Assembly (NCBI RefSeq): GCF_012911015.1
Contig: NZ_WVVV01000005.1
Location: forward strand, 262,608-326,607
DNA length: 64,000 bases
Reading direction: 5' to 3'
DNA from: Chelativorans sp. ZYF759
Lineage (GTDB): Bacteria; Pseudomonadota; Alphaproteobacteria; Rhizobiales; Rhizobiaceae
The position numbers were made by a program, and so were the translations under genes. The notes below the pieces were generated by a model, which was not told the origin of the DNA, did no database searches, and was given only the letters and a program-made list of their open reading frames with translations. The stretch's first letter is position 1. Each line of letters starts with the position of its first letter. Shown here piece after piece: positions 31,834-61,335 of this stretch.

Positions 31834-31847
31834 TGGCGGAGAGGGGG
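31834..31847. repeat. candidate left attachment core (attL)
   Basis: TGGCGGAGAGGGGG recurs at 44731-44744 in the same orientation. It resembles the complement of a tRNA-Ser 3' end. The DNA between the copies carries the integrase next to the right copy. Confidence 0.6.
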
Positions 31848-32713: not shown

Positions 32714-33958
32714 CTACCAGTCCTGTTCCCAGTCCGCGTCGATTGGACCGTCCCGGTCAATATCCTTGCGGAGCCTTACGGTTGTCGCGACAACCTCCAA
32801 GAGCTGAACGGCATCGATGCTCCGAGGGTGCATGGTCGGATTGCGAATACCAATCAGCCGCTCAATGTCGACCTGCAGACGTTCACGCCTGCGGAATACC
32901 TCTCCGAACAGGGCATCCCAGTTATCGCGACGTAGGATGATCGAACACACTTCACCGAGGTGCAGGAAGTGGTGGAGCGGGGCAAAGCTCTCTCCTCGTC
33001 GTAGCGCCTCCTTCCGCCGCGTCTTGGTCGCAAGCAACAGGTCGCCGGGAGCGCGGTGCTTCAACCATTCTATGCCCGCCACGGCTTCCAGTCTGCAGGC
33101 AACGAACTCTCTCAGATATACCTCGAAGGTATCTATCACCCGGAAGGCGCCGACCTTGGGCTGAGACGCGGCGACGTGGACCTCAACCGGACCGAGGTTC
33201 AAGACAGCCACGGCACGGGCACCCTGCTGGCGACCCGCCTCCGCTATACCACTGTCGATGAATATCTCGACGACGTCCGTTGGCTTGGCCTCGACAAGTC
33301 CCTGGTCCACCTCCGCTTCCCGATATACTTCTCGCCTCACCTCTCGATGGCGCCAGAAGGATTGAGGGAGGTCAATCCTCGTGCGGTAGCTGCCCAGGAG
33401 TGATTCGAAGGCAACCTTGCTCGCGAGCGCGCCGGGTCGGAGGAGGCTGGTGGCTTCAGCGAAGGCTGCCACCTTCAAGTGAGTCGTGACCAATGGTCCA
33501 CTCGCGAGCGCTAGCCTTTCGGACACTAGGGCACCCCCGGCCGCTAGCGCCAAGCTGCCCGTGGCGAACTTCGCCTGCTCGCCTATGGCGCGCAGCGGCG
33601 CGAAGGCTTCTTGGATGCGACTCTGCAGCCGCGCCATCTCCTGGACCACGCTGGGCGTTGGACCGAAGATATCTGCTATGCGCGCGCTCGTTAGTTGACT
33701 GAATTCGCGCGACCACTCCGTCATCCTCGCGGCCTCGGCCAGTGACCCTGCCGCTTGAAACTGCGCGATGGCGCCGAAGCTCTGTCGCTCGATTGCCTCA
33801 ATAGCCGTCCGAGCTTGCAGGGCGCCGTCAGCCATATGTGCTGCACGAGCTGCCGCACCCTGGAGTGCTGACGCGTCACCAATATGCTTCATCAAGCGCG
33901 AAGCGGGCGTGTCCGAGAGCTGCTCCGTGGGCTGCAGGAACTTCGATATGTCGACCAT
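32714..33958 (-). CDS. HEPN-domain protein, Swt1-like
   Basis: A 414-residue protein. The N-terminal half is alanine-rich and helical (residues about 25-170), likely coiled or a scaffold. The C-terminal 150 residues resemble the HEPN_Swt1 domain: YLREFVACRLEAVAGIEWLK, then FAPLHHFLHLGEVCSIILRR and NWDALFGEVF. They end in IRNPTMHPR, which fits the catalytic Rx4H motif. HEPN proteins of this kind are often ribonucleases in RNA quality control or antiphage defence. GAGGCG precedes the start. It is a stand-alone gene in a mobile island, so a defence or abortive-infection role is a fair inference, not shown. Confidence 0.7.
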   Translation of the reverse strand: MVDISKFLQPTEQLSDTPASRLMKHIGDASALQGAAARAAHMADGALQARTAIEAIERQSFGAIAQFQAAGSLAEAARMTEWSREFSQLTSARIADIFGPTPSVVQEMARLQSRIQEAFAPLRAIGEQAKFATGSLALAAGGALVSERLALASGPLVTTHLKVAAFAEATSLLRPGALASKVAFESLLGSYRTRIDLPQSFWRHREVRREVYREAEVDQGLVEAKPTDVVEIFIDSGIAEAGRQQGARAVAVLNLGPVEVHVAASQPKVGAFRVIDTFEVYLREFVACRLEAVAGIEWLKHRAPGDLLLATKTRRKEALRRGESFAPLHHFLHLGEVCSIILRRDNWDALFGEVFRRRERLQVDIERLIGIRNPTMHPRSIDAVQLLEVVATTVRLRKDIDRDGPIDADWEQDW

Positions 33959-34155: not shown

Positions 34156-34647
34156 ATGACCACCAGCAACCACTACCGTAAGGCCCGCGCCCTCGTCGCC
34201 AAGATTGAAGCCAACGGCTGCACGGCCGGCGAGGCCGCTTCGGCCCTGCAGACCGCTTCCGACATCGTCGCCAAGCATGGCCTCGAGCCGAGCCGCATCG
34301 ACTGGCCCGTTGCCCCGGCCGGGTACACGGTCGAGGGGACGCTAGGCGTCGACGCCAAGGTCATCAAGGTCGAGGCCGAGGAGCCCGCCACGACCAACGC
34401 CCCGAAGACGCCGCGCCGACCATCTAGCCGAAAGCTACCTCCGCGCACCCGCGCCGCAGGAGAGCCGACACAGGGCGAGCGGGTTGCTGAGATGGTCGAC
34501 CGACCTGACGGCACCTCGCTCGTCGAAATCATCGAGGCCCTCGAAATTCTGCCCCACAGCGCGCGAGCGTTGATTACCGTTCACCTCAGGAAAAAGCGAG
34601 GCTGGAAGGTCGTCTGCCGCGACGGTCGCTACTATCGCGAGGGATAG
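34156..34647 (+). CDS. DUF2786-like / DUF3489-like small DNA-binding-type protein
   Basis: A 163-residue protein. Residues 5-50 (HYRKARALVAKIEANGCTAG to KHGLEPS) resemble DUF2786. Residues about 100-163 (LVEIIEALEILPHSARALIT then RDGRYYREG) resemble the winged-helix-like DUF3489 domain. A linker rich in proline and basic residues separates them. CAGGAG precedes the start. A related C-terminal domain occurs in the nearby gene at 34954. A perfect hairpin terminator follows. The function is unknown; DNA or RNA binding is inferred. Confidence 0.7.
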   Translation: MTTSNHYRKARALVAKIEANGCTAGEAASALQTASDIVAKHGLEPSRIDWPVAPAGYTVEGTLGVDAKVIKVEAEEPATTNAPKTPRRPSSRKLPPRTRAAGEPTQGERVAEMVDRPDGTSLVEIIEALEILPHSARALITVHLRKKRGWKVVCRDGRYYREG

Positions 34648-34793: not shown

Positions 34794-34903
34794 GGTCCAT
34801 GGCTGAATCGGCCAATATTCGCCGCGAGATATCAGGGGGTTATGAGGCGGAAACGCACGTATCGCTCGAATCTGGCGTCCCTGTAGGGGTCGGAAAGCGA
34901 TAC
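34794..34903. repeat. 110-bp island repeat, copy b, with hairpin element
   Basis: It begins GGTCCATGGCTGAATCGGCC and ends in the hairpin GTATCGCT (34859-34866) / AGCGATAC (34896-34903) with an inner CCCTGTAGGG. Related copies are at 40134-40245 and 41213-41311. It sits between convergent gene ends. An open frame 34799-34969 encodes 56 residues but is not clearly a gene. Confidence 0.75.
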
Positions 34904-34953
34904 TGGACGGAACCCCGCATCTCCGGGCTTCTCGGGCCGCACCGCGACACCTC

Positions 34954-35448
34954 CTACCTCATCCTGTAGCGTCCTTCTTCGAATAAGGCCCGGCCTCCGA
35001 CACGGCGCGAGTTGATGCTGATCAGCGCCTTGATGCTAATCGGCTTGCAGCCCAGCTCCGCCACAGCCTCCTCGACCGAGACGCCCTGTGGGCGGCGCAG
35101 CAACTCGATGATGCGGGCGGCGCTGGAGCCAGGCTTGGGCGGGCGGACGGTCTTGGTCCTCTCAGGCTCATCGGCTTTCGGCGCCGTCGCGATGGGCTGC
35201 TCGACCGGCTCCGCCGCGACGGGCACCTCGGGCGCCATCTCGTCGGGCTGGCACGCTTGCACCTGGAGGGGCGGGATGATCGAGTTGCATAGAACGACCC
35301 GGCCGTCTCGCCAGGCGTGGCCTGGTGGTGGCGCAGGCCAGGTGTCGTCGGGCAGGGATGAGCGCGCTGCGGCTGAGAGTGCTGCGGCGCGCTCAGGGTA
35401 GGTCAGCTCGGTGTCGGCCGCTCGGGCCAGGAGGTGGCGGGTGTCCAT
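34954..35448 (-). CDS. DUF3489-like small HTH protein
   Basis: A 164-residue protein whose last 60 residues (SSAARIIELLRRPQGVSVEE onward, ending EEGRYRMR) align with the C-terminus of the gene at 34156. The N-terminal part has YPERAAALSAAARSSLPDD and a proline-rich stretch (PPPGHAWRDG). GAGGAAA lies before the start. It borders the word-repeat region directly, its start only 111 bp from module A, so it is a candidate partner of those modules by position only. Confidence 0.65.
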   Translation of the reverse strand: MDTRHLLARAADTELTYPERAAALSAAARSSLPDDTWPAPPPGHAWRDGRVVLCNSIIPPLQVQACQPDEMAPEVPVAAEPVEQPIATAPKADEPERTKTVRPPKPGSSAARIIELLRRPQGVSVEEAVAELGCKPISIKALISINSRRVGGRALFEEGRYRMR

Positions 35449-35558: not shown

Positions 35559-35866
35559 CGAGGAATAGCAGAAGCCCGGAGTTGCGCGGTTCCCACCGTT
35601 GGCCCGTTTACCGCTGGCCTTTGCCCATTGGCCTCTGGCCTTTGCCCAAAGGCCAGAGATTCCGTTGGCCTGGCCAGTACTCTCAAGAAGCCCGGAAACC
35701 TGCGGAGGCCAACGGTGAGGCCAATATGGAGGCCAACGGTCCTCGGGCCTGCTGCAGCACTCAGGCCAACGGTGGGCCACTAAGGCCCACCAGTTGGCCT
35801 GAGCGCGCGTCCCCTGGCCTGGCTCCATTGGCCTGCGAGCCTTCGAGGTGAAGTAGAAGAGCGCGC
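35559..35866 (+). repeat. word-repeat module A (word TGGCC/GGCCA)
   Basis: The head contains TAGCAGAAGCCCGGAGTT (35566-35583) and the tail GAAGTAGAAGAGCGCGC (35850-35866). Between them TGGCC occurs nine times and GGCCA seven times within 235 bp, one pair overlapping. Helices visible: TCTGGCCTTT/AAAGGCCAGA (35634-35657); CCGTTGGCCT/AGGCCAACGG (35662-35715), which encloses a second AGAAGCCCGG element; and AGGCCAAC+GGTGGGCC with GGCCCACC+GTTGGCCT (35763-35800). Probably a structured non-coding RNA or DNA element; function unknown. Confidence 0.85.
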
Positions 35867-35930
35867 GGTGGCGCTGGCGGCGAGGAAGCCCGCCCGCCAG
35901 CCAGGCAATAAGCCCAGAATTCCCTCGTCT

Positions 35931-36256
35931 CGAGGAATAGCAGAAGCCCGGAATTGCGCGGTTCTCACCGTGGTCCGCTTTACCGTGGTCCGATGCCCTG
36001 GTCTGGTCCGATTTGGGCCTGTTTGGCCAAAGCGGACCACGGCGGACCACGGCGGACCAGGATTGCAGAAAGCCCGGAACTCTGGGCGGACCACGGTCGG
36101 ACCACGGTGGGACCACGGTGCTCAGGGCTTGCACGCTGTGCCCCGGACCAAGGACCCCTTGAAGGGGGGTCCATGGTCCGGGCGCGGCAGCCGTGGTCCG
36201 GTCCATGGTCCAAGCAGTAGATTGGTCCGAGGAATCCTCGAAGTAGAAGAGCGCGC
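35931..36256 (+). repeat. word-repeat module B (word TGGTCC/GGACCA)
   Basis: It has the same head (34-bp match to module A with one difference) and the same 17-bp tail (36240-36256) as module A. The internal word is TGGTCC seven times and GGACCA seven times in 258 bp; chance expectation is about 0.1. Helices: TGGTCCG/CGGACCA (36004-36039), and CCGGACCA+GGACCCC with GGGGTCC+TGGTCCGG (36143-36182). The internal AGAAAGCCCGGAACT element is at 36067. Confidence 0.85.
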
Positions 36257-36968
36257 TGGTTCCCTCGGACGAGGTCACCCAAGCGCGCGCGCGCCGTTGC
36301 CCGCGTATCGCTCTTCGCAATGCCATATCGCCCCGCAGCCCCACCACCGACTGATACCGCCCGTGTGGCCGCGCGTGGCCGAAGGCGTGGCCCTCCACGC
36401 GCGGCGGACGTTGTCTCGGACTCCGCCCGGGTTCATATATCAGTATGGCGAGCATCGCCTCGCGGGCCCGACAGCTTACACCACATGGTCCGATTCAGAC
36501 GAAGCCCCAGCGGCTGGGCGGTTGCGCGGATACAGACGATAGGGCGGACTGCATCGATTGCATCGTCTGCGGGCTGGATGCCGCCACGGTCGTTGCTTAC
36601 TAGGACAGCCATACTGACCCATCGGCCGAACCACCTCATGATGTTATGGGAATAAATACTCCATGCGGAGCCCCACATCGGGGCTCCCGCCCTCCCTCAT
36701 GGGTCCATGGCGTTCCCGGGTCCCGTTCAAGACGAGAGCCTCGACCTGGGTGAGGCCTCTCAGCCTCGAAGGCCTTGGCTCCCCATCATCTGCCCAGCTC
36801 TGTCACGGCTCGCTGCGCTCGCGCGTGTCGAGGTTCTGCGGGGTGGCGCGGCCAGGTCGACCCCTAAGGCGCCGAGCGCGTACTGCTTCCTCGCCTGCCA
36901 GCATTACGAGGCAAAGTGGCAACAGCCCAGTCGGCCCGCTCTCGTCCGCCAAGGCTCCTCGCTGGAGT
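36257..36968. other. gene-poor stretch between modules B and C
   Basis: It holds a run of three GTGGCC words (36365, 36375, 36387) with the perfect stem CCGCGCGTGG/CCACGCGCGG (36369-36403), possibly a degenerate fourth module, and half of a GTATCGCT element at 36304. An 81-residue minus-strand frame (36433-36678) has no recognisable feature. Confidence 0.55.
36667..36687. terminator. hairpin GGAGCCCC/GGGGCTCC
   Basis: A perfect 8-bp stem with a 5-nt loop in the gene-free stretch, of the same GGGCTCC composition as the core of element a at 32638. It is probably a terminator for a transcript of the module region. Confidence 0.45.
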
Positions 36969-37283
36969 GTTCTTCTACCATTCCAACTGTCCAGTCCAGT
37001 CGGTAGCACCGCCCTGTCCAGTGGAGACCCCCTTCAGGGGTCCCACTGGACAGGGGGCGCCGAGGATGCTCCGCTCGTCATTGTATAGGCGATTGGACAA
37101 GTGACTGGACTCCGCACAACTCCGGGCTTCTATGCCTACTTGTCCAGTCACTGTCCTTCGACTGGACACGTCCATTGGACAGGGGTGCCGGGAGGCCATA
37201 AAAGGGGCAGTCCAGTCGCCAGTCCAGCGGTAAACCGTCCAGCGCTGGACTCCGCAGAACTCCGGGCTTCTGCTAACCGGTCT
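36969..37283 (-). repeat. word-repeat module C (word TGGAC/GTCCA), inverted
   Basis: A third module on the opposite strand. The head TAGCAGAAGCCCGGAGTT reads on the minus strand (37258-37275) and a weaker tail GTAGAAGA is near 36975. On the plus strand GTCCA occurs eight times and TGGAC six times in 262 bp. Helices: TGTCCAGTC/GACTGGACA (37141-37168); GTGACTGGAC/GTCCAGTCAC (37101-37151), enclosing the internal AGAAGCCCGG element; GTCCAGTGG+GACCCC with GGGGTC+CCACTGGAC (37016-37051); and the palindrome GTCCAGCGCTGGAC (37237-37250). Confidence 0.85.
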
Positions 37284-37421: not shown

Positions 37422-37859
37422 TCAGCGCCCCCTCGGACGAGGCTTCGCGCCGACGATGCGCTTGAGGGTGTCGTAGCCGGGTCCATGACCAGATATCGAG
37501 CGGTCGACGCCATCATCCGTGTTGGCCTTGCAGGTGCCATGCTTCGCCCAATACCGCGATGATACCTCGGCCATGCTCTTTGCCTTCGCAGGCTCCAGGC
37601 GCTTGCCATCGGCAGAAGCCCGAAGAGTAGTCAGGCTGGATGCTTCAGCCATCGAGCCCGAGGTGTCGAGCTTCGTGTAAGCAGCCATGATTGCCTCGAG
37701 GCGCGCTTCGCGCTGGGCAGGTGTGGCGTCCTCTGGGAGGTCGGTCATGAATGCCGCCGTCGCTTCGAGATAAGCCTCCACCGCGCTTTCCGGGAAGACG
37801 GCGACCGGGCCGCTAGTGGCATAGCCGGTGATTGCAATTCGTGGTTCGTCGGTCTGCAT
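37422..37859 (-). CDS. hypothetical island protein
   Basis: A 145-residue protein starting MQTDEPRIAITGYATSGPVA after an AAAGGAA ribosome site; an upstream in-frame extension is rejected. Residues about 30-70 are acidic and helical; the C-terminus is basic (KRIVGAKPRPRGR). No family is recognised. It lies downstream of module C and may share its neighbourhood promoter. Confidence 0.6.
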   Translation of the reverse strand: MQTDEPRIAITGYATSGPVAVFPESAVEAYLEATAAFMTDLPEDATPAQREARLEAIMAAYTKLDTSGSMAEASSLTTLRASADGKRLEPAKAKSMAEVSSRYWAKHGTCKANTDDGVDRSISGHGPGYDTLKRIVGAKPRPRGR

Positions 37860-38079
37860 GATGCTGTTCCTTTCGTGGTGTTGATAGGGCGTGGCCGGAA
37901 CCGCTCTGAGAGAGGACGGGCGATTCCGGCCACAAGGAGACGCGTCGATGTTCCCTGCCGACCCGCCTGCTATTCTTTCCCGGCCAGACGGAGGGAGGAC
38001 ACGACTCCATCCGGCCGGGAGGTACACGCGCGCATCTGGGGCTGGGTAAGATGTGGCCCGTCGAGCGCTGCGCTGTGAC

Positions 38080-38155: not shown

Positions 38156-39238
38156 CTAATGTCCGGTGATCATCTGCCGCCCGCCGCCGCCGCTGACCTC
38201 GGTCTCCTGCGCCCGCGCTTCGCGGAGCAGCGCAACGTCAACTCGTAGGCCCAGCACTGCGTCGGCGGGCAGCGCTCGCCACGTGACGTCCTCGCCAGAG
38301 TCGATGGCCTGCCAGACGGCTTCGGCTTCGAGGCGCTCGACATCGGCAATCTGTCGGTCGAGAGCGCGGACCAGCTTGCGGCGCTCAAGCGCGTCGATGC
38401 CGTCAGTGGTGTCGTAGGCCTCGTCGATGTTGGCCTCGAGGGTCTCGATCAACTTTTCCTTGAACAACCAGGCCGTCAGCGCGGCCGCGTCGACCACGCT
38501 GGGCGTGATGTCGGTGATGCCGTTCAGACGCTTCTTCGGCCAGCTGATGCCAACGCTCGGCGGATGGATGTGGCCTTCACCATGATCGATGAAGGGTTCG
38601 CCCGCGCCCGAGACGGTCGGGGCGCCGCGCCTGGCGAGGGCCTCGACTTCGCTTCGTACCTTGGCCTTAACCTCTTCGGCCGAGAGCGGCGCATGCTGCG
38701 CCTCCTTCTTATCCTCGCGCAGGCGCAGGGCGTCGGAGCGATACTTCGCGACGAGGGCCGCGCAGCCGCCCGTGGCGGGCAGCTTCAGCTCGGGCCTGGC
38801 ATCGACCAGCGTTCCCGCAGGATGACCGTTGACGAAGCGCTTCGCTTCCGCCTGCAGGTCGCGCGTGGCATGGAGCTGGCGGATGATTTCGCTCTGCGCC
38901 TGCATCGCACGCTCATGGCTACGCCGTGCGCGCGGCAGAGCTTCCTCGGCTGAGGCCAGCGAGGCCTTGGTTGCCGCGCTCACCTCCTTACGTGTGGCCC
39001 GCTCCTCGGCCGCAGCCTCCTTGAGACTTTCGACGAGGGCACGCGCATCGAGGTACCGAGCTTCCGCCTTGGTTGTGGCGTGGTGGGCTCCCTCGGAAAG
39101 GTCGGCGAGTTCATCGGCCCGCTGCGCGAGCCAGCCGAGTCGGCGCTGAGCCGCTTCGGGCAAGGATGCAATCCGGTCCTTGGGCCGGGTGGTGGTTGGT
39201 GCCGCGTCAGGCGCAGCGGCTGTCTTGAGTCCGAACAT
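38156..39238 (-). CDS. hypothetical coiled-coil protein
   Basis: A 360-residue protein. Residues about 25-165 are charged, alanine-rich and predicted coiled coil (AAQRRLGWLAQRADELADLS; AAAEERATRKEVSAATKASL). The C-terminal half has mixed composition (GEPFIDHGEGHIHPPSVGIS) and more helices (ALERRKLVRALDRQIADVERL). No family is recognised. It starts 11 bp after the stop of the upstream gene, so the two are likely co-transcribed. Confidence 0.65.
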   Translation of the reverse strand: MFGLKTAAAPDAAPTTTRPKDRIASLPEAAQRRLGWLAQRADELADLSEGAHHATTKAEARYLDARALVESLKEAAAEERATRKEVSAATKASLASAEEALPRARRSHERAMQAQSEIIRQLHATRDLQAEAKRFVNGHPAGTLVDARPELKLPATGGCAALVAKYRSDALRLREDKKEAQHAPLSAEEVKAKVRSEVEALARRGAPTVSGAGEPFIDHGEGHIHPPSVGISWPKKRLNGITDITPSVVDAAALTAWLFKEKLIETLEANIDEAYDTTDGIDALERRKLVRALDRQIADVERLEAEAVWQAIDSGEDVTWRALPADAVLGLRVDVALLREARAQETEVSGGGGRQMITGH

Positions 39239-41401: not shown

Positions 41402-42247
41402 CTACGCCTCGACCGTCTCCTCGCTCGCAGTGGCCGGGCGCACCACCTGCCTGCGCGGACGTGGCATCGGAGGGATATCGACCTCGCCCGATGGATTGGC
41501 ATAGGCGACCTTCTCCCAGCAGGGGACCTTGTAGCGGCGCGGGACGTTGTCGGTGTGGTCAGCCCAGACCGCCATGCCTCGGGCGATGCACTCGACCATC
41601 TCTACGGGCGTCAAGTTGAGCCTGTTGCCTTTGGATTGGTTCTCCGGGCCGGGTAGGTGGCACAGGTTCTGAGGTACGTGGAGCCCGGCGATTGGCTTAC
41701 TCTTTAGCCCGATGATGTGGTCGACGTGATGGCTGGGCGGGCAGGAATCGTAGATGGCGACGATGGCTGCGCGCTCGGCGTCGGTGAGCCATGGCGGGGT
41801 GCGGTGACGGTTGCGCCGCGCGTGCTGTTTGGCGAGGCCGGGGTTGGCCTTGCGCCATGCTGCGCCGTACTCGCGGAAGTATCCGGTCTCAGCAAGCTTG
41901 TGGATGCGGGCGTTATCGGCCTCGCGGTTCTCGGGGATGGCGAGGCGCGCTCGTGCACTGGCGTTCCGGGCCTCGCGCCATTCAGGGACGCTGGCGTTGC
42001 TGGCGTACCACTCGCGGACGCGGGCGTTCTCGGCCGCGCGGACTTCCGGGTCGGCGCAGCGCTTGCGGTCGCTCTCGCGCGCACACCCCATGCACTGCTG
42101 TCCCTTGCCCTTCCTCGTCACCCGCCACACCGACACGTGCCCATGCTTGCAAGTCCCTTCGGGATAGAAGAACGGCTCACCCGCCGCGACTGCCTCCAGC
42201 CGCGAGCCTGGTAGGCTCGGCCAATCATCAGGGTGCGGTGCTGCCAT
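41402..42247 (-). CDS. HNH endonuclease
   Basis: A 281-residue protein. Residues about 165-210 form an HNH nuclease: SHHVDHIIGLKSKPIAGLHV then PQNLCHL and ENQSKGNR, with the paired histidines, the central asparagine and the last conserved residues in place. The N-terminal 150 residues contain CKHGH and CMGCARESDRKRC, possible zinc knuckles, and a basic helical repeat (REWYASNASVPEWREARN). GGAGGTTCG precedes the start. Such HNH proteins occur in phages and islands as homing or packaging nucleases; a defence role is also possible. Confidence 0.8.
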   Translation of the reverse strand: MAAPHPDDWPSLPGSRLEAVAAGEPFFYPEGTCKHGHVSVWRVTRKGKGQQCMGCARESDRKRCADPEVRAAENARVREWYASNASVPEWREARNASARARLAIPENREADNARIHKLAETGYFREYGAAWRKANPGLAKQHARRNRHRTPPWLTDAERAAIVAIYDSCPPSHHVDHIIGLKSKPIAGLHVPQNLCHLPGPENQSKGNRLNLTPVEMVECIARGMAVWADHTDNVPRRYKVPCWEKVAYANPSGEVDIPPMPRPRRQVVRPATASEETVEA

Positions 42248-43301: not shown

Positions 43302-44504
43302 TCAGCGCCCCATCAGATAGTCCGCCCATCGCTGCATTAGTTCCTGGCGTTCGTCGCGACGGTAAGACTTGTCATATATCCGCTCCACCTTGCCTCGGAT
43401 GTCATGTGAGATGGCCAGCTCCGCAATCTCCCGTGGCGCCTTCGCAACCTCGCTTGCCCAGGTGCGGAACGACGTTCGCATGCCGTGGACGGTGGCGTGT
43501 GCCTGCCCAGCGCGGAGTTTCTTCACGCACTTGTTCAGTGCGTTGTAGCTCAGAGGCTCTCCCGGATTCCCACCGGGGAAGACCAGCTCCTCTGTGCGCG
43601 GCTGAGCCTGCACCAACTCGATGGTCACGTCGGCAAGCATCGAATGGTGGATGCGCTTGGTCTTCATCCTATGAGGCGGGATGGTCCAGATGCGCTGGTC
43701 CATGTCGAACTCCTCCCACAGCGCGCCTCTGGCCTCGCCGCTGCGGGCGCCAGTCAGGATAACGAGCTGCAGGACCCTAGCAGCAGGATATTCCTCCTTG
43801 CGCAGCCGCCCGAAGAACTCAGGCATCTCCTCCCAGGGTACGTAGGGATGGTTTTCGATGACCTGGAAGCTCGACAGCGGCGGGAGGAGGTGGAGGAGCG
43901 GACCATCCTTCGCGGCAGGATTGTCGCCTGAGCGAAACTTCCTTGACTTGGCCCAGTCGAGGACCTTGGCTATGCGCCCGCGCAGTCTCCCCGCCGTCTC
44001 AGGCTTCTCGTACCAAACCTCTTCCAGCGCTTCGAAGACGTCCTCGACCTCAACCTGGTCGACCGGCTTGCTCCCGAACACTGGGCTGGCGTAGTCGGCC
44101 AGCGTCTGACGCCACTGCCGTCGATGCGGCTCGGACTTCCAGCTCGCCTCATGAGCAGCGATGAATTGCGCGGCGCACCAGTCGAACGAAGGAACAGTGG
44201 TCGATGGGGATGGCCTGGCCTTGCGGCGCTCGTCGCGTGCTTGCTTGCGCTCGGCCGCAATGTCGATGCCGCGCCAGAGCTTGGCTCGTAGTTCGGCCGC
44301 TGAGGCTCTCGCCTCGTCGTACGAGACGTCGCGCCGCGCGCCCAGGCCGAGCGACCGCTTGCGGCCGTCGCGCATGTACCGGAACGCCCACGAGCACGTC
44401 CCGTCCGGGCGAACCTGAAGATACAGGTTCTGGTCAACCCGATGTGTGCCCTGCACCTTCGCCAGCGCATCGACACGTCGCGCTGACAGCACCTGCTTCG
44501 CCAT
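43302..44504 (-). CDS. int: P4-type tyrosine integrase of the island
   Basis: A 400-residue site-specific recombinase. The N-terminal DUF4102-like arm-binding domain starts MAKQVLSARRVDALAKVQGT; a central core-binding domain spans about 100-190. The catalytic domain has TGARSGEARGALW (Arg), TVHGMRTSFRTW (HxxR) and a tyrosine in VERIYDKSYRRDER. AAGGGCG precedes the start; an extension of nine residues is not used. It lies 50 bp from arm-type repeats and about 230 bp from the right attachment core, the expected position for the enzyme that inserted the island. It is a relative of the pseudogene at 17504. Confidence 0.92.
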   Translation of the reverse strand: MAKQVLSARRVDALAKVQGTHRVDQNLYLQVRPDGTCSWAFRYMRDGRKRSLGLGARRDVSYDEARASAAELRAKLWRGIDIAAERKQARDERRKARPSPSTTVPSFDWCAAQFIAAHEASWKSEPHRRQWRQTLADYASPVFGSKPVDQVEVEDVFEALEEVWYEKPETAGRLRGRIAKVLDWAKSRKFRSGDNPAAKDGPLLHLLPPLSSFQVIENHPYVPWEEMPEFFGRLRKEEYPAARVLQLVILTGARSGEARGALWEEFDMDQRIWTIPPHRMKTKRIHHSMLADVTIELVQAQPRTEELVFPGGNPGEPLSYNALNKCVKKLRAGQAHATVHGMRTSFRTWASEVAKAPREIAELAISHDIRGKVERIYDKSYRRDERQELMQRWADYLMGR

Positions 44505-44553
44505 CGCCCTTCTCCCTTCCGCACGGACCATGGGCTGAGGCGCCCACCAAGTC

Positions 44554-44730: not shown

Positions 44731-44744
44731 TGGCGGAGAGGGGG
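44731..44744. repeat. candidate right attachment core (attR)
   Basis: TGGCGGAGAGGGGG, identical to 31834-31847. The following GGACTC strengthens the likeness to the complement of a tRNA-Ser 3' end, but no tRNA can be folded from the flank. Confidence 0.6.
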
Positions 44745-44999
44745 GGACTCTTCCGCTCAATGCTCAGAAGCCCTGAATTCTAGGGTTCTACAACCGCATT
44801 GCAGGCGGGTTGTGTACCACTGATGTGACCCCTTTCCAAGCCTTTCGCGTCCTGGTCGCGTGTCATCAAGGAACGCGCCGCGATCAACTGCTGTCAAGAG
44901 AACAAGAGGTGTTCGAGATGGTCGAATTAGCGCGGGACAATCGAACTAACGTCGAAATGCCGAGAGGGCCGGCAAGATGCCGGCCCATATACTCTGGAC
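44745..44999. other. short flank right of the island
   Basis: It contains CAGAAGCCCTGAATTCTAGG (44765-44784), reminiscent of the module heads, and a perfect stem GGGCCGGC/GCCGGCCC (44966-44986) that probably terminates the minus-strand gene ending at 45000. Confidence 0.5.
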
Positions 45000-47299: not shown

Positions 47300-47977
47300 T
47301 CAGGGTGCGTGCGCACCCTTTTGGGGATCGTCGCCATCTGGCGGACGGAAATCCTTGCCCCCCTTACCATCCCCGCCTGCTTCCCGGCTGTCGGTCGAAC
47401 GATCCTCTTCCTGCTGCTGCGCCTCCAGCCAGCCCAGCGCGGATCGGAGCAGCGCTATTTCGGCATCCGCGTCGATCTTCCCGGGCGGAGCGCAGGTCGC
47501 AAGCACGGCCCAGTCGTGATTGTCGCTGATTTCGTCAAGCCAGCCGTGCGCGGCAGCGGGCAGCGCGAGCCGTCGCCTCAGGACGTCGAGAGCCTCGGCA
47601 CGTGCAGCCGGTCGACGGAGGTCCGCCACAAGCCGTCTGTAGGACGGGGCTGACCGATAGCGGCCATGCATCCTGGGCGCTCTTGACCTGAGCTGTATGA
47701 TGCCGCTGCCACCCTCTCCGCGCTCCCTCTCTGCCTGCTGGGCGCACCGGTCGTCGCGGGGCGGAAGTGGAAGGGCCGCCACCTTCCAGGGCCACCAGTC
47801 CGGAACGACTGGTGCGCGTCCTACAAGGATCAGGATGATGAGCAGCAGCTGCAGCGCCGTCGATGCCGCAGGATCGATCCTCCGGATGCGCCGGCGGCGA
47901 TGGCGCCAGATGTCCAGACAGCTCCTGCGCTTCGTCTTTTGGTTCTTCGAACCGTTTTCCATCATCTCCCCCTTCAT
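47300..47977 (-). CDS. hypothetical membrane protein of the mobilisation operon
   Basis: A 225-residue protein with one hydrophobic helix (TALQLLLIILILVGRAPVV, residues about 40-60), a basic N-terminus and a charged C-terminal tail rich in Gly, Asp and Lys. It is coupled to the relaxase by an ATGA overlap at 47974-47977. It may be an accessory of DNA transfer, for example a membrane link to a coupling protein, but it has no recognised family. Confidence 0.55.
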   Translation of the reverse strand: MKGEMMENGSKNQKTKRRSCLDIWRHRRRRIRRIDPAASTALQLLLIILILVGRAPVVPDWWPWKVAALPLPPRDDRCAQQAERERGEGGSGIIQLRSRAPRMHGRYRSAPSYRRLVADLRRPAARAEALDVLRRRLALPAAAHGWLDEISDNHDWAVLATCAPPGKIDADAEIALLRSALGWLEAQQQEEDRSTDSREAGGDGKGGKDFRPPDGDDPQKGAHAP

Positions 47978-49404
47978 CTGCGTGGCCCGATAAACGTCGC
48001 GGTTTCCGACGGGTCGTGGGTCGGGTCCGCTTGAGAATCGCGCTGTATGGGCCTTCCAGCGCGACGTTTTGTTGACGGACTGCCCGAAACGGCCCGCATC
48101 CGGGCCCGCAGCGCTGCCGCCTCGTCCCAGCCCTGGACCATGTGGGCGATCAGTTCGGCCGCTCTCCGTCCCGCCTCTTCGGCCAGGCGGAGGATCTCGT
48201 TGAGGTCGACGCGGGCCAGCCTTCTCGCATCGATCGCCAGATGCGCTCGGCTGCGAGGTGAGATCCTTCGAATTCCGAAGAGCCTGGGACCATGGCTCGA
48301 CATCGCACCGGCGGCGGCTAGCTCCGCTCGTCCAGCCTGTCGGACAGGACCTCGATGGCTCGCAGGGTTTCCAGCTGCGTCTGGACGATGGTCGACAGCA
48401 GCTCCGTCACCTCGTCCAGTGCGCTCCCTTCGCCTAACTGCGTCGGGTCGAGGAGCGACAGGAGCGGTCGCAGTGCCTCGGCCGCCTCCCGGCTCCCTCG
48501 GGCCTGATCGTAGGTCGCTCTGAGGGCGCGCATGGCGGGTGGTGGTGGTGTCTGGTCCTGCATGGTCGGGTGCCTCCTGCTGCATGCGTGCCTGCACCGC
48601 GCGGCGACGCTGGCCGGCCAGTCGGTCCAGCGCGCCCAGCGCCGCACCATCTGGGCCCGTGACGATCCACACGCCCGGCTTGTCGCCGCGCGCGACACCG
48701 AGTCCGGCTTCTGCAAGGGCGGCGCGAAGGGCGTCCGCGCTGTCGCTTGCTTCCCACGCCTGCCGCACCGTGACGCGTACGTCGGGAAGGGAAACTCCAA
48801 GTCTTTCGGCCCTCGCCCTCTGCCGGCTGGACATGGCCGCGCGCGGAGGTTTGGGCATGGCTTCGCCCCTGACCCGCGCCGCGACATCGGGACGACCCAT
48901 GCGATCGAGTTCGTCGGCGATGGCGGCCACGCTGCGGACCTGGGTCAGGTCGTGACCCCAGTCATGTTCCATCGCCCGCGCGGCGGCTCCCAGCCGGACG
49001 AAGCTGTGGCCGTCTTTCAGCGCCCTGCCATCGGGCCCGACGTGTGACAGGACCAGGTGGTAGTGTGTGTCCACGTCGCGCCCACGTCGGGTCTTCCCGG
49101 CATGCTCCCAAAGGACATGGGCATGATCCTGGGCACCCATCGCCGCGAGGACCCGCTCCACGGCCTCGTCGCGTTGCGCGTCGGTCAGGGGCGCGGAAGG
49201 TGACAACGATATGTGGTGATAGGCGACCTTGGCCTGGGATCCGTCGCGAAGCGCCTCCATGTAACGGAGCGCCTCTACTTCGTCGGAAACCGGCGCTGCG
49301 ATATGCACGACGCGGGCCCGCTGGCCTTCCTGACGCCCAAGGTGCTTAAGCAGATACCGCGTATCGCGACGGGTGCGCCCGTGCCGTGTCGTAGAGACAA
49401 TCAT
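47974..49404 (-). CDS. MobA/VirD2-type relaxase
   Basis: A 476-residue DNA strand transferase that nicks at oriT. The N-terminal 160 residues carry the relaxase fold: a likely catalytic tyrosine early (YLLKHLGRQEG), VAYHHISLSPSAPLTD, and HVLWEHAGKTRRGRDVDTHY followed by HLVLSHV, the histidine cluster that binds metal. Residues about 280-380 are low-complexity (RARPQSDLRSGPREPGGGRG style) and coincide with an overlapping gene in another frame. It overlaps mobC-like upstream and the membrane protein downstream by 4 bp each. It mobilises a plasmid or integrated element with help from another conjugation system. Confidence 0.87.
   Translation of the reverse strand: MIVSTTRHGRTRRDTRYLLKHLGRQEGQRARVVHIAAPVSDEVEALRYMEALRDGSQAKVAYHHISLSPSAPLTDAQRDEAVERVLAAMGAQDHAHVLWEHAGKTRRGRDVDTHYHLVLSHVGPDGRALKDGHSFVRLGAAARAMEHDWGHDLTQVRSVAAIADELDRMGRPDVAARVRGEAMPKPPRAAMSSRQRARAERLGVSLPDVRVTVRQAWEASDSADALRAALAEAGLGVARGDKPGVWIVTGPDGAALGALDRLAGQRRRAVQARMQQEAPDHAGPDTTTTRHARPQSDLRSGPREPGGGRGTATAPVAPRPDAVRRRERTGRGDGAAVDHRPDAAGNPASHRGPVRQAGRAELAAAGAMSSHGPRLFGIRRISPRSRAHLAIDARRLARVDLNEILRLAEEAGRRAAELIAHMVQGWDEAAALRARMRAVSGSPSTKRRAGRPIQRDSQADPTHDPSETATFIGPRR
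48318..48563 (-). CDS. overlapping gene inside the relaxase, MobB-like by position
   Basis: An 81-residue protein beginning MQDQTPPPPAMRALRATYDQ in a different frame of the relaxase gene. AGGAGG lies nine bases before its ATG. Its C-terminal half (LDEVTELLSTIVQTQLETLR then AIEVLSDRL) is a regular amphipathic helix, more protein-like than the low-complexity relaxase frame at the same place. RSF1010-type plasmids likewise encode mobB inside mobA, so a mobilisation accessory is a reasonable guess; sequence similarity to MobB is not evident. Confidence 0.6.
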   Translation of the reverse strand: MQDQTPPPPAMRALRATYDQARGSREAAEALRPLLSLLDPTQLGEGSALDEVTELLSTIVQTQLETLRAIEVLSDRLDERS

Positions 49405-54268: not shown

Positions 54269-55057
54269 CCTGGCCTCCATCATCGGCCGCACCATTGCAG
54301 CCGTTCCAGAAGCCATTCACGGCAGGAAAGGGACGCAAGCTGACCGCCGCAGGCGCGCTCGCGCTTGGTCATGAGCGTAAGCGGCGCGTCTGCCGTAACA
54401 GGTGTGGAGGAAACGGCTTCGTGCGGCCTCAAGTGCGGGAGGTATGGCACCGAAGGACAAGCTAACGATGAGAAAGGGCTCCGGCCGACGAAATTGTGCA
54501 GGGCAACGCTTCTACGACTAATCCGAGGTCGATCACGTCCGGCACGAAGGCCGCGAGGGCTGCGGTCGAAATTGGGAGGATGGCTTCACCTCGTCAGGAT
54601 GCAGCGGGATCGATAGACTCAGAGTGTCCCGAATGAACTTCTGCTGCCGACCCCATTGTCGCCGTTCGGAATGCACCTGGCGTCACCCGAAGCCTGATGC
54701 CGTTCGTCCACATCGCCCATCCGACAGAACTGGAGTTGTGAACGGAATGTTCGCCTTCTGGCCTCGATATGGGGAAAGCCGCCATTCGTAGGCAATAAGC
54801 GCCTGGTCGCGTCTGGCTCAAAGGTGACGCCCAGGCAGGCGAAAACGGTCGTACTCAAACGGTTTTTGACGCGAATCGTGCTAGCCTATGGTCCGCCACT
54901 CGATTGAAGGACAAGCTGGGGATGCGTGCTTGCGACACGGACCGGCACTCGACAAACTGATTTTGCTCGACCATAAGAACAAGCAAGGGAGCGCATGCAA
55001 GCAGATGGCGGGTGTCGGAGCAGCGGTGCTATTCTGCGCCAAACGAATACTGAAATC
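54269..55057. other. 789-bp stretch with no supported gene
   Basis: An open frame at 54619-54858 (minus, 79 residues) and shorter shadows are present, none with a ribosome site or domain. The composition suggests decayed intergenic DNA between the plasmid genes and the methyltransferase cassette. Confidence 0.5.
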
Positions 55058-56185
55058 ATGTTGAACTGCGCGGATTTGTTCTCCGGCGCTGGCGGATTCA
55101 CCTTGGCTGCGCGACAGGCGGGGCTGCGGGTTCGTCTAGCGGTTGAAAACGATCGACATGCGATCGGCACATATCGAGACAATTTCTGCAAAGGCCCACT
55201 GGCACCAACGCTGCTTACGGATGACATTACCGAAATCGATGCCTGGAAGGCTTTTCGGGATGCCTTTCCTGACGGAGATCAGTGCGATCTGTTATTGGGA
55301 GGACCGCCGTGCCAGGGCTTCTCGACCCATCGAATCAACGATGCTGGCGTCGACGATCATCGAAATGATCTCATTCATACCTACTTCGATTTCGTCCGCG
55401 CCTTTTCGCCCAGCGTGTTTCTAATGGAGAACGTGCCAGGAATGCTCTGGCAGAGGCACGCGGCGGTGCTGGATCGTTTCTATCTCGAAGGGGCGCTGGC
55501 AGGGTACGACGTGAGGGATGCGGTCATAGTCGATGCCCGCAACTATGGGATCGGCCAAAGGCGAAAGCGCGTCTTCATTCTCGGCATTCGCAGTGGGTTG
55601 GATGCGTCTGGCTTGACATGGCCCCCAGCGCCCACACACGGCAGCGATGCCGCGCGAAAGGGCAATCCCGATCTGTTACCCTGGGTGAATTGCACCTCGG
55701 CATTTGCCAATGCTCCTGCAGAAGACGAAAACGACGTCCACATGACGCACAGCAAAGAACTTATCGAGGCGTTTCGGAGGACACCGGCCAACGGCGGCAG
55801 CCGAAAGGATTCGGGGCGCGAGCTCCCGTGTCACCGAACTCATGACGGGCATAGGGACGTGTACGGGCGGATCGATCCGCTACAGCCCGCTCCGACGATG
55901 ACGACCGCTTGCATCAACCCGTCGAAGGGCCGTTTCGTGCATCCCATCGAGCATCACGGCATTACCGTTCGACAAGCAGCGAGGATTCAGACATTTCCCG
56001 ACGAGTTCGTGTTCGGCGGCGGCCTCATGGCCGCCGGCAAACAGGTGGGAAATGCGGTTCCCGTAGAACTCGGGCGGCAGTTGATCACGCACCTATTGCC
56101 GTTGCTGCGCCGCGGCCGCATCGTGAAGGAGCGGGAGGTCGCCACCGTCCATTCTGGTATTTTCGACGAACTCGAAACCGTATGA
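55058..56185 (+). CDS. DNA (cytosine-5) methyltransferase
   Basis: A 375-residue C5 methyltransferase. Motifs in order: SAM-binding DLFSGAGGFTLAARQAGLR (residues about 6-24), catalytic GGPPCQGFS with C85, MENVPG near 122, QRRKRVFILG near 167, RIQTFPDEF and the final GNAVP. The target-recognition region lies between about 220 and 320. ATG 55058 is chosen because the fold begins directly after it, although the ribosome site is weak; an upstream ATG at 54995 gives 21 extra residues. It is the first gene of a coupled cassette with the GHKL protein (ATGA overlap). Confidence 0.92.
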   Translation: MLNCADLFSGAGGFTLAARQAGLRVRLAVENDRHAIGTYRDNFCKGPLAPTLLTDDITEIDAWKAFRDAFPDGDQCDLLLGGPPCQGFSTHRINDAGVDDHRNDLIHTYFDFVRAFSPSVFLMENVPGMLWQRHAAVLDRFYLEGALAGYDVRDAVIVDARNYGIGQRRKRVFILGIRSGLDASGLTWPPAPTHGSDAARKGNPDLLPWVNCTSAFANAPAEDENDVHMTHSKELIEAFRRTPANGGSRKDSGRELPCHRTHDGHRDVYGRIDPLQPAPTMTTACINPSKGRFVHPIEHHGITVRQAARIQTFPDEFVFGGGLMAAGKQVGNAVPVELGRQLITHLLPLLRRGRIVKEREVATVHSGIFDELETV

Positions 56186-59163
56186 TCACCCGCGTCGCAT
56201 TCCAGACAAAGGCGCGGACCGTAGATCACCTGGGCCGCGAGCAAATCGCCGACACGCCGACGGCGATATCCGAGCTGTGGAAGAACGCATTCGACGCTTA
56301 TGCGCGGAACGTGGCGCTCGACATATTCAACGGGGACAATCCGGTCGCCGTGATCGGAGACGACGGTCACGGGATGGACCGTGACGAATTCGTCAACCGC
56401 TGGCTTGTGGTGGGCACTGAATCCAAGGCAACTACCGAACGCACGCCCGACAAGGACCGGAATGGCCTCTATCCTCGTCCGCGCCAGGGCCAGAAGGGTA
56501 TTGGTCGCTTGTCCTGCGCGAATTTGGGGCCGATTCTGCTGTTGGTGTCAAAGCGCCGCGATCGACCCTTTGTCGCTGCGCTCTTAGATTGGCGTTTGTT
56601 TGAGAACCCATTTCTAGTTCTATCGGACGTCCATATCCCGGTCGTTGAATTCGAGACCGAGGCGGAGCTGTTCAACCAGGTCCCGGTCCTCATCGAGGGA
56701 CTGCTAAGGAATCTCAACGACCCCGAAAACGAAGAGCGTTCAGCGCGTCTCGAAGCAGCTTGGACCGCCTATGACAACCTCTACGATGAGGAACAGGCCG
56801 AAGGCGTGAGCAACAAGATCGGCGCGCCTTCATTGGAGATTCGCTCGTCGATCAAGAAGCTGCACTTTGAATCGCGCCATATTGCACAGTGGCCAGTGTG
56901 GTCAGGCGAATCCGAACATGGCACGGCGCTGCTCGTGTCGGGCATCAATTACGATCTCCAGGTGCAGCTTGAAACGGAGATCGCGGATTCCTCGGCGCGC
57001 GCCGCACGCGAACGTTTTTTTGAAACCCTATCGAGTTTCGTCGATCCGTTCGTCGACCCCAAGCATCCCGAAGCCCGTGCCGTGGACCTCGATTTCACCT
57101 ACACCGTGAGAACCTGGCACCATGATGTTCCCGAGCTCGTGGTCGGGAGCGAGAAACAGTTCGATCGCAGGCTGCTCGACGGGCTTGAGCATCAGATCAT
57201 CGGCACGGTTAACGCAGACGGGGTCTTTGAAGGTCGGGTCAAGGCGTTTGGCCACTGGGTTGAGGAGACCTGCCGCATCGAACCGCCGCGCGATCTGGCA
57301 ATCCCAACGCGAGCGGATACCGAAGTTGGTCCGTTCGACATGTACATAGCTTCGATGGAATTTGTGTCCGCGAACACGACGCTGCCGAAGTTGGAGTTCC
57401 AGCGCTATCAGGAATTGGCCGAGCGTTATTCTGGCTTCATGATCTTTCGCGACGGATTACGCGTCCTTCCCTACGGTCGAACCGACAACGATTTCTTCGA
57501 AATCGAATCGCGACGCAGCAAGAATGCTGGCCGAGAGTTCTGGAATCATCGGCAGATGTTCGGACGTCTCGCGATCACACGAGGTGCTAATCCGAATTTG
57601 AAAGACAAGGCGGGGCGTGAAGGACTGCTGGACAACCGAGCAGCTAAGACGCTTAAGCTGATCGTCGCCAATATCCTCAGCCAGTCGGCCCGACGATATT
57701 TCGGCTCGGCTTCGTCCATTCGCAGCGAGGTGCTCCCCCAAGTCAAGTCGTCGAACAAGGCCGAACGCGCCAAAACTGAGCGCAACAAACTGCGCCAGCG
57801 GCAGCGCAAGGAGTTCCGGTCCAAGCTCGACAGGTATGTTAAGGAACTACCGGCGCTGGTGGACGAGATTGAGGACTTCGCGCAACATCTCGACATCGCA
57901 GACGAGAGTGCGATTGCCGACGCCCAGGCGGCGTTCGAGAGCTTCAAGGACAGGGTCGCGGACTTTCGCCTTTCGGGTGCGCCGAAGAACCTCGGCTCGC
58001 TTGAGGACAAATATGCCGATTATCGGGATTCGATGCGGTCGGCGACAACGCTGATCGAGACAGCAGCGATTGAAATCGAAAGACAGATTGAGGAGATCAA
58101 CCCCACCCAGCCCCGCGAACTCCTCGAAAGGCAGCTGGCGCGACATTCCTCGCAGATTGCGCATCGTATCCAGCAATGGAAGAAGGCGATTGAAGGGCTG
58201 CAGCGGGCGGAGTTCGAACGTGTCAAGGATCTGATCACGGATAGGAACAAGTATTTTCATGCCGAGGCGAGTCCGCTCTTGGCGCGGTTTGATCGCGGAG
58301 AATTGTCCTTTGCCGAAGCCGCGAAGTTGATGGAGCAGGAAAAGGAGCGCATCGATCAGGAAAACGAAGATCTGTTCCTCCCTTACATCGGCGCGTTGGA
58401 AAGCCTGAAGGAAAGCATCGATCTCGAGCATCTCGCCGCGTTCGGCATGGAAGAGGCGGGAGACATGCGCGCGGAACTCGACCGCCTGAACAGCCTCGCA
58501 CAATTAGGCATTGCGGTGGAGATCGTCGGTCACGAACTGCAGTCCTATGACGATATCATCGGAGCGGCTCTGCGGCGATTGCCTGCTGAAGTGCGCGACA
58601 GCAAGGCAGCGAAGGACATCGAGTTTGGCTATGAGGGGCTAACCGATCAACTGCGGTTCTTGTCGCCGCTGCGTCTCGCCGGCCAGAAGATCCAGCGCTG
58701 GATCACTGGTCAGGAAATTGCCGAATATCTTGGCGAATTCTTTAAGCTCTCCCTTGCCAAGAACCACATAACGCTGTCCGCCACCGACGCATTCAAATCC
58801 TTCAGGGTCTATGACCAGCAATCGCGGCTCTATCCGGTTTTCATCAACTTGGTGAACAACAGCCTGTACTGGGTCGGAACATCCGAGCGCGACGATAGGC
58901 GAATTGTTCTCGACGTTCTCGACGACATCGTAGTTGTGTCCGACAGCGGACCAGGCATCGATGTAGAGGACATCGACAATTTGTTCAGCTTGTTCTTCAC
59001 GCGCAAGGCTCGCGGTGGACGCGGCGTGGGGCTGTATCTCTCTCGAGCGAACCTCGCCGCGGGCGGTCACCGCATCCGCTATATGGCACCGTCGGATACG
59101 CTCCCGCTTTCCGGAGCCACTTTTGGAATCGAGTTCAGGGGGGCGGAATTCGATGGCGAATGA
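56182..59163 (+). CDS. double-GHKL protein: Hsp90/MORC-like ATPase fused to histidine-kinase-like module
   Basis: A 993-residue protein. N-terminal GHKL fold: ISELWKNAFDAYARN near 25-40 (N-box with Asn and Asp), VIGDDGHGMDRDEF near 55-68 (G1), KGIGRLSCANLG near 101-112 (G2), as in MutL/MORC-type ATPases. The centre (about 520-760) is long charged helices. GHELQSYDDIIGAALRRLP follows, with H784 where a histidine kinase carries its phosphoacceptor, and then a second HATPase: NLVNNSLYWVG, VVSDSGPGI and GGRGVGLYLSRANLA (near 890-955). It is co-translated with a methyltransferase upstream and a receiver protein downstream, so a phosphorelay tied to DNA modification is inferred. Confidence 0.85.
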   Translation: MITRVAFQTKARTVDHLGREQIADTPTAISELWKNAFDAYARNVALDIFNGDNPVAVIGDDGHGMDRDEFVNRWLVVGTESKATTERTPDKDRNGLYPRPRQGQKGIGRLSCANLGPILLLVSKRRDRPFVAALLDWRLFENPFLVLSDVHIPVVEFETEAELFNQVPVLIEGLLRNLNDPENEERSARLEAAWTAYDNLYDEEQAEGVSNKIGAPSLEIRSSIKKLHFESRHIAQWPVWSGESEHGTALLVSGINYDLQVQLETEIADSSARAARERFFETLSSFVDPFVDPKHPEARAVDLDFTYTVRTWHHDVPELVVGSEKQFDRRLLDGLEHQIIGTVNADGVFEGRVKAFGHWVEETCRIEPPRDLAIPTRADTEVGPFDMYIASMEFVSANTTLPKLEFQRYQELAERYSGFMIFRDGLRVLPYGRTDNDFFEIESRRSKNAGREFWNHRQMFGRLAITRGANPNLKDKAGREGLLDNRAAKTLKLIVANILSQSARRYFGSASSIRSEVLPQVKSSNKAERAKTERNKLRQRQRKEFRSKLDRYVKELPALVDEIEDFAQHLDIADESAIADAQAAFESFKDRVADFRLSGAPKNLGSLEDKYADYRDSMRSATTLIETAAIEIERQIEEINPTQPRELLERQLARHSSQIAHRIQQWKKAIEGLQRAEFERVKDLITDRNKYFHAEASPLLARFDRGELSFAEAAKLMEQEKERIDQENEDLFLPYIGALESLKESIDLEHLAAFGMEEAGDMRAELDRLNSLAQLGIAVEIVGHELQSYDDIIGAALRRLPAEVRDSKAAKDIEFGYEGLTDQLRFLSPLRLAGQKIQRWITGQEIAEYLGEFFKLSLAKNHITLSATDAFKSFRVYDQQSRLYPVFINLVNNSLYWVGTSERDDRRIVLDVLDDIVVVSDSGPGIDVEDIDNLFSLFFTRKARGGRGVGLYLSRANLAAGGHRIRYMAPSDTLPLSGATFGIEFRGAEFDGE

Positions 59164-60910: not shown

Positions 60911-61296
60911 TGTACTTAGTGTTGAATGTGGAGAGGACGACCTATTTTCAGCTTTACACGGCATACCTTACGCTGGATTTCTGCAGGAGGCGGAGAATGG
61001 CTCAAGCTGGTGTTGGTAGACGATAGAGCGTGCGGTGGTAGGCTCCGCAGTCGAAGGTCAGCTGTTGGTTGGCTTTGCCCTCAGATAATGCGCAGCTGCG
61101 GTGACTGACCCCTTTCGGGATTATATCGTGAATCGGCGAACGACCGGCTCGGGGCGCATTGCCGTTGAAGCGCAGCGGCGACCTGAACGGCCGCTATCCC
61201 AGCTTCCCGCCCGGACACTGCCAGTCCGTTATCTACCCGAAACGGCCACTGCGGACCCATGCCTTTATCAGTAATTGCACTTTAACGGATCGGGGG
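60911..61296. other. spacer between receiver gene and second methyltransferase
   Basis: About 390 bp with short frames only. It carries TTAACGGA half-sites (near 61282) beside the operator at 61297. No terminator is obvious. Confidence 0.5.
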
Positions 61297-61316
61297 GTAA
61301 CGGAGATATCCATTAC
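61297..61316. promoter_or_regulatory. operator-like palindrome upstream of the second methyltransferase
   Basis: GTAACGGAGATATCCATTAC, an inverted repeat with one mismatched pair, 20 bp before the start codon. It matches the perfect palindrome at 51382 in 17 of 20 positions. Confidence 0.65.
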
Positions 61317-61335
61317 GGGGCGGCGGGAAAAACAG

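Follow-up and report, generated by a model that had tools for sequence, protein, structure and literature searches.

In phage P4, the type 1 repeats in crr and ori are bound by the alpha protein. In plasmid incompatibility arrays such as P1 incA, iterons outside the origin limit replication by titration or coupling. Published work describes several further systems. In PICIs the origin directly follows the 3' end of the initiator gene, and an AT-rich region in it is flanked by two sets of iterons (PMC6092414). The PLE satellites of Vibrio cholerae have an origin with three ~30-bp semi-palindromic iterons, and RepA is encoded on the element (PMC7145576, PMC8263062). Phage ICP1 carries an origin-directed nuclease, Odn, that appears to select altered origins in satellites, and such selection is a known reason for a change of word (PMC8263062). 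SGI1 carries a pair of parS-like sequences, which bind the ParB of its helper and make use of it (PMC10954446), and replication of pRN1 requires a stem-loop 3' of the gene for the replication protein (PMC4234260).

Positions 35559..37283 of the window, by which we mean the whole 64-kb stretch of DNA analysed here, hold three related modules (A, B and C) of ~310 bp each, which have a head and a tail in common and one word of their own apiece. P1 incA-type arrays resemble these modules as iteron arrays outside an origin, but belong to the same replicon and use the same iteron as that origin. P4 crr and ori share with the modules the short words in both orientations, the tandem paralogous repeats (crr) and the separation of an array from the initiator gene (ori); P4, unlike the modules, has one word (GTTCACC-like), the alpha gene on the element and AT-rich segments. 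Both orientations and tandem paralogous repeats are P4-type features present at the modules, whereas there is no single word and no element-encoded initiator was recognised. PICI and SaPI origins have element-specific iterons and a satellite-like setting in common with the modules but differ in the initiator gene directly 5' and the iteron sets flanking an AT-rich region (PMC6092414). Repeated short iteron-like words are the one such feature seen at the modules, which have neither a recognised primase or initiator gene directly 5' nor a flanked AT-rich region. In PLE, iterons likewise set initiator specificity and replicon swapping offers a possible driver of word change, but the iterons are three ~30-bp semi-palindromes served by the element's own RepA (PMC7145576, PMC8263062). 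SGI1 is an island with sites for a helper's DNA-binding protein, and incompatibility as a result; that system, however, serves partition and not replication, with two copies of one specificity (PMC10954446).

The original prediction knew of no described repeat family with the property of these modules. Such a family does exist, as the P4 crr/ori repeats and the PICI iterons (PMC6092414) are of the same kind. The class, iterons, is known; for three orthogonal arrays in one island without a recognised initiator, a narrow search of open-access text found no description, nor any published case of several words in one element, or of initiator decoys in satellites.

Three modules, each filled with its own word

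Module A (35559..35866, plus strand) is filled with TGGCC/GGCCA (16 copies, of which 15 are non-overlapping and one overlaps; longer form CCGTTGGCCT; log10 P -18.0), module B (35931..36256, plus strand) with TGGTCC/GGACCA (14 copies; longer form CCGTGGTCCG; log10 P -23.9) and module C (36969..37283, minus strand) with TGGAC/GTCCA (14 copies; longer form ACTGGAC; log10 P -14.7). Within each module the 14-16 copies occur in both orientations. Modules A and B are in tandem, 372 bp apart, and C is inverted. The top 5-mer or 6-mer count of a module was reached by none of 1000 dinucleotide shuffles per module, and when the entire window was scanned with a Poisson model, log10 P ≤ -9 was obtained only at A, B and C, the next best value being -6.4. 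The coordinates, head and word counts of the original prediction were thus right on recount, and the saturation beat every shuffle.

The modules open with TAGCAGAAGCCCGGARTT (35566..35589 in A and 35938..35961 in B, both plus strand; 37252..37275 in C, minus strand) and end in a GTAGAAGA-type tail. The head core is present again at the midpoint of every module, as AGAAGCCCGGA in A (35686..35696, plus strand), as AGAAAGCCCGGA in B (36067..36078, plus strand) and at 37121..37131 on the minus strand in C. Each module also contains a hairpin, H3, at 35753..35809 in A (plus strand; 24 pairs, 15 of them wholly outside words), 36139..36186 in B (plus strand; 21 pairs, 15 outside) and 37006..37060 in C (minus strand; 25 pairs, 20 outside). 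A vestigial fourth head (34909-34932), followed by one C-type word at 34902 (34902..34932 in all, minus strand), looks like a truncated module copy.

When the modules were aligned, word orientation was the same in most shared word columns (54/56 for A-B, 35/42 for A-C, 36/42 for B-C), and the order of the words in the interior differed among the three. The claim that spacers stay while words are swapped applies near the head, where non-word identity between modules is 78-90%, but not further in (31-54%) or in the tail (54-63%). TTTACCG does lie between the first two words of all three modules if same-strand words are counted, but in C a GTCCA precedes.

Two other readings of the words were set aside. 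A 350-aa minus-strand ORF runs across A and B; it was rejected as a GC-rich chance ORF, since no listed ORF spans C and the 350-aa ORF has no Pfam match. The second is restriction sites: C5 methylases read palindromes such as GGCC and GGWCC, and two C5-methylase genes lie at 55-63 kb, but the TGGAC of module C is non-palindromic.

The modules likely sit in a mobile island. A tyrosine integrase gene (43302..44531, minus strand) lies ~6 kb from them, and a weak 14-bp repeat pair, TGGCGGAGAGGGGG at 31834..31847 and its candidate right partner at 44731..44744 (both plus strand), may represent the att sites of a 12.9-kb island whose limits are weak. Beside A lies a DUF3489-like gene (34954..35448, minus strand; match below the Pfam cut-off), with a DUF3489 gene recognised by Pfam further out (34156..34647, plus strand). 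Next to C is a gene of unknown family (37422..38027, minus strand), followed by a gene at 38156..39238 (minus strand) with distant relatives in the family, some of them near phage-like genes, and by an Endonuclease VII-like gene (41402..42247, minus strand). A Pfam scan of 21 island ORFs of at least ~126 aa (31.8-44.5 kb), a set that includes some chance frames, found no primase, helicase or initiator family, and no packaging or phage-structure genes were recognised among them.

Several other features of the window were recorded. A gene at 32714-33958 has weak Swt1-like HEPN and PADLOC PDC-M34B matches and is a possible island defence gene. Near the candidate right att repeat, AGAAGCCCTGAATTCTAGGGTTCT (44755-44785) resembles the module head and may be a chance hairpin. 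Outside the candidate island, a MobA/VirD2-type relaxase gene lies at 47974-49404, and at 54995-62685 two C5-cytosine methylase genes flank a large HATPase gene, which matches a PADLOC type II restriction model (REase_II); the three form a probable restriction cluster.

Searches of phages and plasmids by DNA similarity found no relatives of the modules. Exact-head scans returned one locus in IMG/VR and six in genomes of the species, with saturation absent in 6/7; the seventh, L012, was obscured by runs of N. blastn against 297 genomes of the order gave short matches in 49 besides the source, and the 29 loci that were read contained no array. A head model run on 385 genomes of the class yielded three weak matches besides the source genome, none of them saturated. 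Tandem A or B words matched in 21/374 genomes of the family, the source included, at 21 places outside it, again with no saturated array. Three B-like words (GGGACCACGG type) were seen just upstream of an integrase-like gene in another genome of the family (L236, about 1470-1520; G128 contig 18).

The neighbouring proteins led further. IMG/VR yielded no relatives of two of them, while the product of 38156-39238 has two relatives (59-62% identity) in an Aliihoeflea MAG, which points to Rhizobiaceae as the family, and distant relatives in 7/393 other family genomes. Among eight loci around such relatives, three had a strong array (L100, L103, L106), one a weak array (L104, log10 P -8.8) and four none. 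Each strong array has its own word (TTCCTAGCG in L100, GTCCCACCT in L103, TTGGTCACC in L106). In L103 and L106 a primase/helicase gene is directly followed by the array, and in L100 the array overlaps the 3' end of the gene. In L100 and L103 the relatives lie near genes for a small terminase, a tape measure or a ClpP-like protein; small terminase and tape-measure genes are present in both, the L100 tape measure being identified from its translation only.

Word arrays at primase genes

We fetched 49 viral loci with homology to the L103 primase as the sole criterion; the choice was blind to arrays on those contigs, although L103 itself was already known to carry one. An array with log10 P ≤ -9 was found at the primase stop codon in 46/49 loci, or 47/49 if L250 is counted, in which the array (log10 P -21.7) starts just after the end of the primase match; L292 and L293 fell below the threshold. 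The loci are not independent, as L266/L267, L272/L273 and L268/L286 look like near copies. The best window elsewhere in these loci reached -9 in 7/49, one of which is the L250 array. Under a two-orientation criterion (log10 P ≤ -10 and at least three copies each way), 44/49 primase loci passed, compared to 0/83 other genome loci (320 kb), a non-random set made up of blast hits, DUF3489 loci, word patterns and stretches of the source genome, with L218, which holds the array of contig C73, left out.

The words varied among elements (AGGTTGG, AGGTGGG, AGGTCGG, TCTGCCA, TAGGACA, CTATGAC and others). In 33 of the 49 arrays, oriented by hand, the 10-mer iterons were of 23 kinds. In a frequent layout, 9-bp tandem words formed two clusters, nearly mirror images of each other, on either side of a centre, and CGCGCGCG was present in 34/49 arrays. 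The source genome has such an array as well: on contig C73 (L217, 600-940) a D5_N/DUF5906 primase gene is followed directly 3' of its stop by a two-orientation AGGGACG array, which has the look of an ordinary second, phage-type origin. Across the primase loci, word saturation of the kind first noticed in the modules is thus frequent and goes with a replication gene. The scan also recovered the P4 origin regions when run as a positive control (X51522), its two best windows being the annotated crr, a tandem pair of 120-bp repeats immediately after the alpha gene, and ori; the lowest 40-nt GC was 0.25 in crr and 0.20 in ori.

A further 103 viral loci (L108-L210) were selected by pattern and are therefore biased by construction. 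Of these, 24 passed log10 P ≤ -9 and nine were read. An array lay at a primase-type gene in L185, L207, L203 and L181, a choice that was not blind; the primase types among them were AAA_25+Toprim, Prim-Pol, Prim-Pol+AAA_25 and VapE. L119, L121, L128 and L135 were set aside because their sequence seems to be coding or of low complexity. L140 has an array, but with 3.1 kb of DNA only and no initiator recognised. The related viral arrays of L283 and L289 have a conserved frame and different central iterons. With its mixed outer copies, L283 is a mosaic in which the swap is incomplete, possibly caught midway.

Word differences followed the primase. Across 31 primases, the closest agreement of word distance with protein distance came from a single C-terminal window (divergence-corrected partial r 0.37), and the observed peak was reached in 3/500 permutations, with shared ancestry not fully removed. 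In L258 the peak covers residues about 414-443. A fold predicted for this protein (mean pLDDT 72.9) shows that the peak window spans helix 419-429 and strand 434-441, that is, a predicted helix and wing strand, and the modelled C-terminal domain (strand-helix-helix-strand-strand-helix) has winged-helix order. Because word differences track a window over this predicted segment, the word is best read as a probable site for the initiator's predicted DNA-reading domain, and not as an RNA barcode. The part of the original prediction that proposed a DNA family with target specificity set by the word agrees with these results, given arrays at 46/49 primase loci and words that track the C-terminal part of the primase.

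Modules A, B and C resemble these arrays in some respects and not in others. Of the 49 primase arrays, at least ten contain the B hexamer 7-10 times and at least ten contain the C 5-mer 12-13 times, and the longer B-type form CGGACCAC occurs three times beside the primase in L287. Word A, however, has at most four copies in any of the 49 arrays, the longer forms of C at most five, and the word order and spacing of the modules are unlike the frequent 9-bp tandem layout. The base composition also differs. The lowest 40-nt window lies 2.8 bases below locus GC in A and 5.8 in B and C, compared to a median of 5.7 in ordinary segments, whereas the 49 primase arrays, taken at equal length, dip by 6.6-17.0 bases per 40, so that 0/49 are as flat as the modules. 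In absolute GC, two of them (L248 and L260) do not exceed B and C in AT content.

Explanations for the modules

With a confidence that falls just short of even, we take the modules to be iteron-like DNA arrays, each of which would bind a different initiator from another phage or satellite, and would hold it rather than fire it. We infer that A, B and C bind phage-type initiators, and that these come from outside the island, as no initiator gene was recognised among the island ORFs scanned. If an infecting element had iterons matching A, B or C, the chromosomal array would be loaded with the initiator of that element. As the array has no AT-rich segment for unwinding, it would hold this initiator and not fire it, and replication of the invader would be lowered by titration, with the three words giving three initiator specificities. 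Titration of an initiator is the principle of plasmid iteron incompatibility. Support for this comes from the primase-linked arrays, the P4 control, the covariation, the B and C words in primase arrays and the flat AT content; the rarity of word A in primase arrays, the different layout and the family search without a saturated array count against it. That the modules go further and form a panel of three orthogonal traps, tuned to the iterons of different invaders and blocking their replication, with whole-array word changes that track those invaders, seems to us doubtful.

The same site logic would serve if the modules were helper-driven origins, at which the initiator of a matching helper starts replication of the excised island, a satellite with three possible helpers. 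The integrase and the gene at 38156-39238, with relatives beside phage-like genes, agree with this, and SGI1, in which parS-like sites are used with the helper's ParB, provides a precedent (PMC10954446). We consider it unlikely, since the modules have no AT dip, unlike the 49 primase arrays (with locus GC allowed for) and P4 crr and ori. The missing dip and the lack of a recognised initiator modestly favour a decoy. Less likely again is that the modules are relics, in which case a series of satellites would have left three dead origins behind after loss of the primase. The island without a recognised initiator gene, the truncated fourth head and the tandem and inverted accretion of modules agree with relics, but decay should hit words as well as spacers, and the words are near-uniform within modules despite the low interior non-word identity between them. 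We give still less credence to sites for the island's own proteins, such as regulatory, centromere-like or packaging arrays bound by the two DUF3489 proteins, which are putative binders. The DUF3489-like gene beside A, the DUF3489 gene further out and the DUF3489 gene downstream of the array in L106 point that way; against it, two such genes face three words, and 30 loci around DUF3489 genes (37/199 family genomes matched) contained no two-orientation array, the best of them (L087) reaching -9.9 with eight copies in one orientation.

A structured RNA or DNA family had been suggested in the original prediction. We rate such a family, as an RNA or a cruciform DNA with the words as helix segments, as low as the own-protein sites. 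The modules do fold better than shuffles (z -4.4, -7.8 and -6.9), and H3 is found in all three with paired non-word positions; H3 alone argues for structure beyond the words. However, 16 of the 49 primase arrays, when folded, gave z of -2.7 to -13.6 (median -6.4; each against 20 shuffles). Complementarity is inevitable where a word stands in both orientations, so that mixed orientation alone gives the folding signal, and a different word throughout each module mimics compensatory change. The differing order of the interior words also speaks against a common fold, and Rfam has no match at the modules, its only match in the window being chrB-a RNA (RF03078; 17094-17176, minus strand). A structured RNA is thus not needed, and the idea that the words keep tandem copies from cross-pairing found no support. 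The iteron reading, for its part, gives no account of the head, its midpoint copy or H3.

These observations carry a warning, in that covarying hairpins in bacterial DNA can arise from two-orientation protein sites and not from RNA structure. The 49 primase loci, with their differing words, form a natural data set on how an initiator and a dozen sites change specificity jointly, and the covariation signal points to one predicted winged-helix segment, independent of what the modules do. If our preferred reading of the modules as arrays that hold foreign initiators is true, a mobile island would hinder, or feed on, several replicons through DNA sites alone, which would amount to protein-free phage interference.
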